64,000 bases of DNA from Acidobacteriota bacterium (GTDB lineage Bacteria > Acidobacteriota > Thermoanaerobaculia > Multivoradales > JAGPDF01). The stretch spans positions 124,001 through 188,000 of the forward strand of contig JACTMI010000006.1 in NCBI GenBank assembly GCA_014584695.1, in the 5' to 3' direction. Shown one piece after another: positions 43,121-53,811 of this stretch (the first letter of the stretch is position 1; the number at the start of each line of letters is the position of its first letter). The notes beneath the pieces are model-generated. The model searched no databases, was not told the DNA's origin, and was given only the letters and a program-made list of their open reading frames with translations. Position numbers and translations under genes: made by a program.

Positions 43121-43210
<90 letters not shown>

Positions 43211-43223
43211 GTGCAATGACAGC

Positions 43224-43313
43224 TGGCGGAGAGGGTGGGATTCGAACCCACGATCGAGTTACCCCGATACACGCTCTCCAGGCGTGCTCCTTAGACCACT
43301 CGGACACCTCTCC
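43224..43313 (-). tRNA. tRNA-Ser (anticodon GGA)
   Basis: A 90-nt class II tRNA with encoded CCA. The acceptor stem GGAGAGG/CCTCTCC is the same as in its neighbour. The anticodon loop CTGGAGA gives GGA (reads UCC/UCU). It has a long variable arm. It sits 16 bases after the tadA stop and is probably transcribed with it. Confidence 0.96.
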
Positions 43314-43903: not shown

Positions 43904-44048
43904 GCGCCGAGCCCGGGACGAAGGGTTCGGGTCCTGTGCACCGGACGGTTCCGAACCTCGTCAGGCCCGGAAGGGAGCAGCGATCAGGTCCTCGCTCCGG
44001 GTGCCGCAGGGGTGCCGGAACCCTTCGTCGCCGTCGCCGGCTCGGCGC
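43904..44048 (+). ncRNA. ffs: Signal recognition particle RNA (4.5S-type)
   Basis: The invariant domain IV stretch GTCAGGCCCGGAAGGGAGCA, which binds Ffh, lies at ~43960-43979. The 5' GACGAAGGGTTC (43917-43928) pairs with GAACCCTTCGTC (44018-44029), and an outer 9-bp helix pairs 43904-43912 with 44040-44048. It lies just before dnaX, the usual bacterial location. Whether the outer helix is in the mature RNA is uncertain. Confidence 0.93.
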
Positions 44049-49398: not shown

Positions 49399-49470
49399 GC
49401 AGCACCTCGCGGCCGGATGCTACCCGGCGCGCGTTCGAGGGCCGCTCGGCGCTAGACTAGGGGGACTTTG

Positions 49471-50457
49471 GTGCCGCCGGAACGGCTCGCCCGCCATTCG
49501 CTCTTCGCCCACTTCGGTGCGGCGCAGCTCGGCCGGCTGTCCGAGGCGCTCAGCGAGCGCGCCGTGGCGGCCGGCGAGACGGTGCTGCGCCAGGGCGACG
49601 CCGGCCGCGAGGCCTACCTGCTCGACGCCGGCCACGTGCGCATCCAGCGCTCGACGCCCTATGGGCTCTTCCCGCTGGCCCAGCTCGATCCCGGCGATCT
49701 GTTCGGCGAGGCGGCGTTCGTCGATCCGGCCGCGCGCTCCGGCGACGCGGTCGCCACCACCGCGGCCACGCTGTTCGTCTTCGCCCACGATGCGCTCGAC
49801 GGCGCGCTCACGCGCGATCCGCGTCTCGCCATGGCGCTCCACTGGACCTTCTGGAAGGGGCTTTCGACCAAGCTCCGGCGCACCAACGACAAGCTCTCCC
49901 GCTTCTTCGCCCAGGGCGTGCCCGGCGCCGGCGCCGAGCGGCGCCCCGACCGCCCGCCGAGCGGCGAGTTCCGGATCGATCTCGCCGCCAAGAAGACGCT
50001 GTTCGCCGAGCAGCGGCTCTCCTCGCTCGAGATCAACTTCCTGACCTCGCTGTCGCGCGAGAGAAAGCTCACGGGCGGCGAGGTGCTGTTCCGCGAAGGC
50101 GACCCGGGCGACGCCATGTACGTGGTGCTCGAGGGGCGGATCCGGATCTCGAAGATCATCCCCGGCGCCGGCGAGGAGGCGCTCGCCATACTCGAGCGCG
50201 GCGACTACTTCGGCGAGATGGCGCTGATCGACCGCCAGCCCCGCTCGGCGCTCGCCAAGGCGCACGACGGCGGCGCGGTCGTGCTGGCGATCCCGAAAGA
50301 AGTGGTCGAGGGGCTGCTCGACATGCACAAGGTCTCCTCGGTGCGGCTGCTCCACATCCTCTGCGGCCTGGTCGCCAAGCGCCTGCGCGAGATCGACGAC
50401 AAGCTGGTCGGCTGGTACATCCTCGCCGGCGGCAACTGGCCGAGCGCCGCGATCTGA
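49471..50457 (+). CDS. Double cyclic-nucleotide-binding domain protein
   Basis: A 328-residue protein with two CRP-like cNMP-binding domains. Domain 1 (~10-125) has GETVLRQGDAGREAYLLDAG and LFGEAAF. Domain 2 (~190-310) has GGEVLFREGDPGDAMYVVLEG and the phosphate-binding cassette YFGEMALIDRQPRSA. There is no helix-turn-helix, kinase or channel domain. Domain 2 keeps the Arg of the cassette; domain 1 is less canonical. A TAGACT hexamer (49453-49458) and AGGGGGA precede the GTG. Confidence 0.85.
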   Translation: MPPERLARHSLFAHFGAAQLGRLSEALSERAVAAGETVLRQGDAGREAYLLDAGHVRIQRSTPYGLFPLAQLDPGDLFGEAAFVDPAARSGDAVATTAATLFVFAHDALDGALTRDPRLAMALHWTFWKGLSTKLRRTNDKLSRFFAQGVPGAGAERRPDRPPSGEFRIDLAAKKTLFAEQRLSSLEINFLTSLSRERKLTGGEVLFREGDPGDAMYVVLEGRIRISKIIPGAGEEALAILERGDYFGEMALIDRQPRSALAKAHDGGAVVLAIPKEVVEGLLDMHKVSSVRLLHILCGLVAKRLREIDDKLVGWYILAGGNWPSAAI

Positions 50458-51710: not shown

Positions 51711-51794
51711 GACCGCGAGTCTAAGCGGCGGTGGACACGCTGGCCGGCAGTATCGCGGCCGGGGTGACAGTTTGGCCGGTTGCCCAAAGAACAA

Positions 51795-51822
51795 TCGGCC
51801 CCGGGCGTGAGCCCGGGGCCGA
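51795..51822 (-). terminator. Strong GC hairpin downstream of candidate ncRNA
   Basis: TCGGCCCCGGGC-gtga-GCCCGGGGCCGA is a perfect 12-bp stem with a 4-base loop. Read on the minus strand it is followed by TTGTTCTTT, a U-rich tail, so it fits an intrinsic terminator for minus-strand transcription. It lies just after the candidate RNA's own T5 tract. Confidence 0.65.
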
Positions 51823-51827
51823 CGGGG

Positions 51828-52001
51828 AAAAACTGTTCGGGGGAGGTTCCGAAGGAGGTTGGCTTGTGTGGCTCTACCCCTGTCTTTTAGGGGATTTGGG
51901 TGAGTTCTCGAAGAAAGGGTGAGATCCTGTGGATCTCGAACTCAAGGTAGGACAACGTCTGGAATGTGGAACCTCCCCGCAAACAGCGATCGTTCTACCT
52001 G
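51828..52001 (-). ncRNA. Candidate structured non-coding RNA, ~170 nt
   Basis: The mutY-sppA spacer is less GC-rich than its surroundings and has no gene. On the minus strand the closing helix pairs 51978-51968 with 51850-51840 (11 perfect pairs), extended by CTGTT (51986-51982) with AACAG (51837-51833), which is followed at once by TTTTT (51832-51828). Inside, TTGT and CTACC (51955-51946) can pair with 51878-51864. A hairpin TGAGTTC/GAACTCA (51944-51938 with 51907-51901) encloses GAGATCC-aca-GGATCTC (51937-51921). A smaller CCCCT/AGGGG hairpin lies at 51893-51877. A promoter lies at 52037-52008. Size and one long closing stem recall 6S RNA, but I could not confirm its central-bubble layout. 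Confidence 0.6.
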
Positions 52002-52007
52002 CTGCTG

Positions 52008-52037
52008 ATTCTAGCAACCGTCGTGCCAGGGTGTCTA
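52008..52037 (-). promoter_or_regulatory. Promoter of the candidate ncRNA (sigma70-like, overlapped by a sigma54-like match)
   Basis: On the minus strand TAGACA (52037-52032), an 18-base spacer and TAGAAT (52013-52008) match the sigma70 pattern at five of six positions each. The same stretch contains TGGCAC-N5-TTGC (52028-52014), a full match to the sigma54 -24/-12 core. Because GCTAGAAT is the common -10 form in this genome, the sigma70 reading is preferred. Confidence 0.6.
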
Positions 52038-52083
52038 TTCCCGCCGGCGCGCGGCGCGGTATCGTAGCGCCCGAGGGTCTCCC

Positions 52084-53811
52084 GTGCGGCGCCTGCTCCT
52101 GCTCTTCCTGCTCGTTCTCGCGCTCGGTTTCGCGGTCGCGGCGGTGGGTCTCCACCTCGCGCGCTCGGGGGCGCCCGCCGGCGGCCTGGGCGGCGGTCCC
52201 TGGCTGCTCGTCCACCAGCTCGCCGGCGAGCTGCCCGACCACGACGGCGGCGCGCCGTTCCGGCTGCCCGGCGCGGCGGAGCCGGCGAGCCTGTCGGCGC
52301 TCTGGCGGGCCTTCGACGCCGCCCGCCAGGACGCGCGCGTGCGCGGCCTCGTCCTCGACCTGCGCCCCGCCGGCATGGGGCTCGCCAAGGCCCAGGAACT
52401 GCGCCGGCAGCTCCACGCCCTGCGCGCGGCCGGCAAGTCCGTCGAATGCTATCTCGAGAGCGCCGGCGAGGGCACCAACGGCACGCTCGAGTACTACCTG
52501 GCGGCGGCCTGCGGCTCGATTTCGCTCGCTCCCGCCGGCGAGGTCGCGCTGCTCGGCCTGTGGGCCGACAGCCTGTTCCTGCGCGGCGCCCTCGACAAGC
52601 TGAAGATCGAGCCCAGCTTCTTGGCCTCCGGACGCTTCAAGAGCGCGGCCGAGGTCTACACCCACGCCGCCCATTCTCCGGCGGCGCGCGAAGCGCTCGA
52701 CCAGGTGCTCGACGGCTATTTCGGTCAGCTGGTCGGCGCCATCGCCGCCGACCGCGAGCTGGCGCCGGAGGCCGTGCGCGCGCTGTTCGATCGCGGCCCG
52801 CTCGGCGCCCAAGAGGCGCTCGCCGAAGGCCTCGTCGACGCCGTAGCCTTTCCGGACGAGTTCGGCGCCGCGGTCGAGGCGGCCGCGGGCGGCGCGGCGC
52901 GGCTCGACCTGCTCGACTACGGTCGGCGCCGTAGCCGGCACGCCGCCGGCGGCGAGCAGATCGCGGTGGTCTTCGCGCAAGGCACGATCGTGCGCGGCGA
53001 AGGCGGGCTCGAGCCCTGGAGCGGTGAGCGTTTCTTGGGCTCGGACGACCTCGCCGAGCTGCTCGAGCAGCTCGCGTTGGACGCGCGGGTGCGGGCCGTG
53101 GTGCTGCGGGTCGACAGCCCCGGCGGCTCGGCGCTCGCCTCCGATCTCATCCTGCGCCGCGCCGAGCTGCTGGCCGCCGCCAAGCCGCTGGTGGTCTCGA
53201 TGTCCGACCTCGCCGCCTCCGGCGGCTACTACATCGCCGCCAAGGCCTCGCGCATCGTCGCCGAAGCGGGCACGCTCACCGGCTCGATCGGCGTCGTCTC
53301 CGGCAAGCTCGCCACCGGCCGCTTCCAGGAGGAGTTGCTGGGCGCCACCCACGATCCGCTCCAGCGCGGCGCGCACGCCGGGCTCTACTCGCCATTGCGG
53401 CCCTACGACGCGCGCGAGCAGGCGCTGCTCGAGCGGCGGCTCGGCGCCGTCTACCAGCTCTTCCTCGGCCACGTCGCCAGCGGCCGCGGGCTCGAGCGCG
53501 CCCAAGTCGAGGCCGTCGCCGAAGGCCGCGTCTGGACCGGCGAGGACGCGCTCGCGCGCCGCCTGGTCGACGAGCTCGGCGGGCTCGACGCCGCGGTCGC
53601 CGCCGCGCGCGCCGCCGCCGGTCTGGCGCCGGGCGAGGGCGCCATCGCGCTCTACCCGCAGACGCCCGGCTTCTGGGCTTGGCTCGCCGCGGCGCGCTCG
53701 CCACGGCTGACCCCCGAGCTCGCCGCGTTGGCGCGCCAGTTGGGCGCGGCACGGGCGCCGCTGACGCTCGAGCTGCCGGCCGAGCTCGCCCGCTGGGCGC
53801 GTCCGTTCTGA
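52084..53811 (+). CDS. sppA: Signal peptide peptidase SppA, long form
   Basis: A 575-residue membrane-anchored serine protease with two S49 halves. It has an N-terminal helix (~4-25), the catalytic Lys in the first half (ASGRFKSAAE, ~185), and the nucleophile Ser in the second half (SDLAASGGYYIA, ~380), matching the E. coli 67-kDa type. VVLRVDSPGGSALASDLI is also typical. It degrades cleaved signal peptides. The start is GTG 52084, preceded by TATCGT (52060-52065). Confidence 0.94.
   Translation: MRRLLLLFLLVLALGFAVAAVGLHLARSGAPAGGLGGGPWLLVHQLAGELPDHDGGAPFRLPGAAEPASLSALWRAFDAARQDARVRGLVLDLRPAGMGLAKAQELRRQLHALRAAGKSVECYLESAGEGTNGTLEYYLAAACGSISLAPAGEVALLGLWADSLFLRGALDKLKIEPSFLASGRFKSAAEVYTHAAHSPAAREALDQVLDGYFGQLVGAIAADRELAPEAVRALFDRGPLGAQEALAEGLVDAVAFPDEFGAAVEAAAGGAARLDLLDYGRRRSRHAAGGEQIAVVFAQGTIVRGEGGLEPWSGERFLGSDDLAELLEQLALDARVRAVVLRVDSPGGSALASDLILRRAELLAAAKPLVVSMSDLAASGGYYIAAKASRIVAEAGTLTGSIGVVSGKLATGRFQEELLGATHDPLQRGAHAGLYSPLRPYDAREQALLERRLGAVYQLFLGHVASGRGLERAQVEAVAEGRVWTGEDALARRLVDELGGLDAAVAAARAAAGLAPGEGAIALYPQTPGFWAWLAAARSPRLTPELAALARQLGAARAPLTLELPAELARWARPF

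Follow-up and report, generated by a model that had tools for sequence, protein, structure and literature searches.

An Uncatalogued Structured RNA Family of One Thermoanaerobaculia Order with Predicted Sigma54 and Putative Rex-Controlled Promoters

The spacer between sppA and mutY in the analyzed stretch of acidobacterial DNA (64,000 nucleotides, hereafter the window, whose numbering is used throughout unless another contig or locus is named) contains a member of a real and previously uncatalogued RNA family. The family is found in one order of Thermoanaerobaculia and folds into a covarying, multibranched structure with C-rich unpaired linkers. Since its copies lie under either a predicted sigma54 promoter or an apparent Rex site, the RNA probably has a regulatory role tied to the energy or redox state of the cell.

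Results

The Gene and Its Predicted Transcript

The candidate RNA gene lies on the minus strand, to which all its features below belong, in the spacer between sppA (52084–53811, plus strand) and mutY. The conserved RNA domain occupies positions 51832–51986 and scores 127.7 bits with the covariance model R2. The predicted transcript spans 51786–52002 (217 nt including the terminator), its +1 at 52002 being inferred from the spacing to the −12 element of the promoter. As the first-pass annotation had described, a T5 tract (51828–51832) is followed by an intrinsic terminator (51786–51822), made of a 12-bp GC hairpin at 51795–51822 and a U-rich tail at 51786–51794. Comparable terminators follow all f1 copies, all f8 copies and most f9 copies, and in the same survey no visible terminator was found in most f3 and f6 copies. 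The longest open reading frame wholly inside the RNA segment does not exceed 31 amino acids, in agreement with the lack of coding bias noted earlier.

Distribution and Genomic Address

A BLAST search with the spacer recovered relatives in the genus and the order, which have in common the GGGGAGGTTC...GAACCTCCCC arms, a CCCCT...AGGGGTAGAGCCAC hairpin and an upstream GGCAY-N6-TTGC block. R1, a covariance model built from the RNA without its promoter, matches 42 of the 149 genomes of the class, and the refined second-generation model R2 matches 44. All 44 belong to a single order of Thermoanaerobaculia (Acidobacteriota), where they make up 44 of 72 genomes, or 44 of 51 once the 21 genomes of genus g23 are left out. 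No member was found outside the order among the 149 genomes of the class or in a phylum sample of 396 genomes, nor was any found in the viral contigs searched. Because R2 adds only two genomes to those of R1, the limit at the order seems genuine for models of this sensitivity. Pattern matches in Polaribacter, Synergistaceae, Actinobacteria and Streptomyces records, the best at 12.4 bits, are attributed to chance. With Rfam 15, no family exceeded its gathering score for the window spacer or the RNA copies examined, and a paper search for noncoding RNA in Thermoanaerobaculia returned nothing. The Rfam-negative scans, the covariance-model homologues and the covariation described below thus support the earlier proposal, a new structured RNA about 170 nt long.

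In about 30 loci (f1, f3, f4, f6, f8 and f9) the RNA occupies the same address: divergent dnaN-dnaA, then the RNA and mutY on the same strand, with sppA between dnaA and the RNA in some of them and, past mutY, a convergent protein with two cyclic-nucleotide-binding domains. The f5 copies are located elsewhere, a second copy lies away from this address in most f3 genomes, and f9 has tandem copies. The paralogues and moved copies share no common downstream gene; around the f5 and Rex-type copies the neighbours differ, and some of them lie on the opposite strand. An array of three tandem copies was seen in G091 (L083, 5515–6366). In the window, the convergent neighbour of mutY (49468–50457) carries no Pfam domain besides its two cyclic-nucleotide-binding domains, and this arrangement is conserved. 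As separate observations, all 21 genomes of genus g23 (G063–G083) keep RpoN but are without the RNA, canonical Hfq and Rex alike, and G035 carries a divergent copy (L156, 4389–4525) with many CACC-type repeats, devoid of the P3 hairpin and of either promoter element.

Fold and Covariation

The predicted fold is considerably more stable than expected from dinucleotide shuffles (z −6.9 with the terminator and −3.6 without it), and none of 200 shuffles reaches it. The core of the closing helix P1 pairs the 5′ arm GGGGAGGTTC (51969–51978) with the 3′ arm GAACCTCCCC (51840–51849). Covariation of this helix had been set beforehand as a test of the proposal; across 61 copies, 9 of its 10 pairs changed on both sides and 96% of the cells are paired. 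An outer extension is predicted between 51980–51986 and 51833–51839, with a lineage-specific register. Inside P1 lie the P2 hairpin GAGATC...GATCTC (51921–51937), with all six pairs changed on both sides, and the P3 hairpin CCCCT...AGGGG (51877–51893), which is invariant in the 16 seed copies. The closing helix and internal hairpins of the first-pass annotation are therefore present, and the model points to a closing helix around an open multiloop that bears two hairpins.

Taken together, 19 of the 21 pairs in the three helices show compensatory changes among the 61 copies, in an alignment that was fitted to R1 and hence leans towards the model. This bias is countered by P3, which changes coherently across paralogue groups: 4 of its 5 pairs covary, and the variants CCCCU/AGGGG, CUCUG/CAGAG and CCGCU/AGCGG all stay paired. 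The covariation score is 0.420, compared with at most 0.135 when the partners are slid by 1–3 columns, and is reached in none of 500 shuffles, which keep the relatedness of the copies in. Within the 16 seed copies alone, two-sided changes were seen in 9 pairs, compared with 4.0 ± 1.1 for shuffles. Furthermore, the strand of the RNA is fixed by G-U pairs in P1 and P2: two P1 positions, for instance, are U-G in 11 and 6 copies, and on the opposite strand such pairs would turn into A-C mismatches.

Promoter of the Window Copy

Upstream of the window RNA lies a predicted sigma54 (−24/−12) promoter, TGGCACGACGGTTGC (52014–52028), recognized as a GG-N10-GC element at near-fixed distance and reading TGGCACG-N4-TTGCT. 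The pattern TGGCAYGN4TTGCW occurs only once in the 4.35-Mb genome, at this RNA. A GG-N10-GC arrangement precedes 42 of 53 covariance-model hits and 31 of 2120 random windows; the element is close to the consensus TGGCAC-N5-TTGC and is situated mostly 31–43 bases before the model start. Near-perfect −24/−12 elements were counted in 44 of the 61 aligned copies (28 of 45 among non-seed copies), and the element is also present in G084 and G027, members that R2 added later. The predicted +1, 12 bases past the −12 C, lands on a GCA conserved in the alignment. RpoN is encoded in all 53 good genomes of the order, including that of the window (G000:C1:325293-325772, E 2.6e-65).

The sigma70 promoter proposed earlier, TAGACA-N18-TAGAAT, does occur as a string (52032–52037 and 52008–52013); it is unconserved even within the genus and overlaps the conserved sigma54 element. 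Judged by conservation, the promoter of the window gene would be of the sigma54 type, in place of the sigma70 one. Neither an activator (enhancer-binding protein) nor its site was found, and no shared upstream dyad was seen besides a GGGAAT block. Conservation of this block (52037–52043), which lies about 40 bases upstream of the start and beside the sigma54 element, extends over f1 and f9.

Rex-Type Paralogues

Ten second copies in f3 have no sigma54 element. They instead carry a sequence that matches TTGTGAA-N4-TTCACAA, which we take to be the Rex operator consensus, at 13–14 of 14 positions, and this putative operator overlaps a sigma70-like promoter. Perfect operators are rare, with 0–2 sites per genome. 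Of the ten perfect sites in the Rex-type genomes, eight lie immediately before the RNA and two before the NADH dehydrogenase gene nqrA; in other genomes such sites are found before QrcA/ActA-like multihaem cytochrome c genes (three genomes) and near selD (one). A Rex gene is present in 9 of the 10 genomes with a Rex-type copy, the tenth genome being 70% complete, and in 2 of the 7 genomes that carry a second copy with neither element. On these sequence grounds the assignment to Rex appears strong, with other regulators of similar operators remaining as candidates. The operator is absent at the promoter of the window copy. Perfect Rex operators before nqrA and multihaem cytochrome genes were recorded at L136, L146, L142, L143 and L144, and a respiratory Rex regulon in Thermoanaerobaculia is likely.

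Unpaired Motif in the Linkers

The three linkers that separate the helices are rich in C (39%) and poor in G (11%). The motif CCNACC occurs in them 59, 18 and 64 times, compared with 12.5, 8.5 and 7.8 in shuffled linkers (141 in total against about 29), and 45 of the 61 copies have at least two; these counts are inflated by shared ancestry, yet the motif recurs in separate linkers of one RNA. It also recurs across paralogues with different helices, and its copies fall in predicted unpaired stretches. The wider pattern C[CU]NACC is enriched in the linkers as well. In the window, the three linkers carry CCUACC (51946–51951), CUCACC (51899–51904) and CCAACC (51857–51862), of which the second conforms to the wider pattern. 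A further conserved unpaired segment, UAGAGCCAC (51868–51876), follows P3. In a small survey of 70 windows before start codons, the complement GGTNGG was not enriched (4 vs 3); a role of CCNACC as a generic anti-Shine-Dalgarno motif is thus unsupported by this survey, whose power is low and which gives no preference to base pairing over protein binding.

Discussion

Comparison with Known Regulatory RNAs

The closest working parallel, by analogy, is RoxS/RsaE of Bacillus and Staphylococcus. RoxS is a Rex-repressed, trans-acting sRNA whose four C-rich regions pair with G-rich targets (PMC5419742). The present family resembles it in having several C-rich unpaired regions and, in the f3 Rex-type paralogues, a putative Rex operator over the promoter. 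It differs in phylum, in size, in its fold of a closing helix with a multiloop and in its CCNACC motif; moreover, RoxS/RsaE is under Rex, whereas the window copy has a predicted sigma54 element instead. Rfam scans gave no RsaE match for the window RNA (E up to 10) or for the Rex-type copies (E up to 1). These likenesses are best read as those of a new family of trans-acting regulatory RNAs that would share the wiring of RoxS/RsaE, C-rich and under Rex control, but no homology with it in sequence or structure.

For the sigma54-type copies, the parallels are other sRNAs. GlmY and CrcZ have −24/−12 promoters that need an enhancer-binding protein. The predicted promoter of the window RNA is alike to theirs and to that of Qrr; the RNA is unlike all three in that it has no sequence or structure match in Rfam and is restricted to one acidobacterial order. 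Qrr is reported to be a sigma54-dependent sRNA with a −24/−12 promoter needing an enhancer-binding protein (PMC10162802).

Proposed Role

We propose, as roughly an even call, that the gene specifies a trans-acting, noncoding regulatory RNA (about 170 nt, plus the terminator) with sigma54 or Rex as input and CCNACC motifs that pair with target mRNAs. The window copy would be transcribed by RNA polymerase with sigma54, in which case the RNA would be made only when an enhancer-binding activator fires; the f3 paralogues under the probable Rex operator would be released at high NADH. The rigid closing helix and the open multiloop with its two hairpins would expose several unpaired C/A-rich motifs of the CCNACC type. 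Like the C-rich regions of RoxS/RsaE, these would most likely base-pair with G-rich segments of mRNA targets and alter how well the mRNAs are translated or how stable they are, so that energy or redox metabolism is adjusted. Action in trans is suggested by the independent terminators (f1, f8 and most f9), the changing neighbours, the tandem copies and the paralogues.

We hold with somewhat more confidence a broader statement: that the family has been rewired between a sigma54 activator and Rex and is either an independent RoxS-like redox RNA or an RNA that titrates a protein through CCNACC. If this is true, Rex control of a C-rich regulatory RNA arose outside Firmicutes, and the family is a clear case of paralogous sRNAs that have swapped promoters. 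It is directly testable, given its strong covariation, its stable address next to dnaA/mutY and its two input types.

Alternative Explanations

Protein titration is the main rival to mRNA pairing, although we regard it as distinctly the less probable of the two. The RNA would be a decoy whose unpaired CCNACC repeats titrate an RNA-binding protein, in the way that GGA motifs of CsrB/RsmY titrate CsrA and A-rich motifs of CrcZ titrate Hfq. The repetition of one short motif over several linkers, and across paralogues with different helices, is consistent with such a decoy, as is the start-codon survey, small as it was. We know of no bacterial protein with CCNACC specificity, and Hfq is unlikely to be a general partner, since canonical Hfq is missing in the RNA-bearing genomes G036–G038 and G042. 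CrcZ itself provides a sigma54-controlled precedent, and its titration of Hfq is reported (PMC4063720).

The RNA could also be a cis-acting leader (attenuator or riboswitch) of the downstream gene, which we consider unlikely. Some of the evidence against action in trans fits here: the copy at the dnaA locus nearly always precedes mutY, in about 30 loci with both on one strand, and the six examined paralogues with neither promoter element precede sufT, a constancy that a cis role could explain. MutY is an Fe-S protein, so that both mutY and sufT concern Fe-S proteins, and in f1 the terminator sits between the RNA and mutY. However, no obvious antiterminator pairing with the f1 terminator was seen, many f3 copies have no terminator, and neither the tandem copies of f9 nor the differing, sometimes opposite-strand neighbours of the f5 and Rex-type copies suit a leader. 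The six copies in question (L090, L091, L092, L093, L095 and L088), which make up a third class beside the sigma54 and Rex types, lie 84–197 nt upstream of sufT (FeS_assembly_P).

Two further explanations are very improbable. The first-pass annotation had named 6S RNA as the simplest candidate, and a divergent second 6S RNA able to bind RNA polymerase would share with our RNA a similar size and a long closing helix; however, RF00013 gave no match with E values up to 10 in the Rfam/Infernal check suggested there, a good 6S gene is present on a different contig of the genome (G000:C20:33123-33311, 61 bits vs a gathering score of 46.4), and a branched multiloop with two hairpins replaces the one long bulged rod of 6S, so this identity is rejected. 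Equally remote is a structure that works as DNA, for example in dnaA/oriC control, with no functional RNA: it adjoins dnaA in most genomes and shares the f3 spacer with DnaA-box-like repeats, but the one-strand G-U pairs, the promoter at near-fixed distance and the paralogues far from dnaA speak against it.

Apart from these, Rfam at gathering thresholds reports nothing in the spacer, and at E up to 10 only weak, chance-like matches. Those to Acido-Lenti-1 (RF01687) and BjrC68 are under their gathering scores, fall on terminator or end regions and were discarded; the former (22.4 bits against a gathering score of 37) covers the window terminator hairpin only, outside the conserved RNA domain. 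In f3 (L065–L067, L069, L130 and L131), the stretch between dnaA and the RNA holds the DnaA-box-like inverted repeats TTTTCCACA ... TGTGGAAA, and an oriC or dnaA control region may be adjacent. Elsewhere in the window, two tandem tRNA-Ser genes and a small SRP RNA (43124–43313 and 43925–44024) are ordinary.
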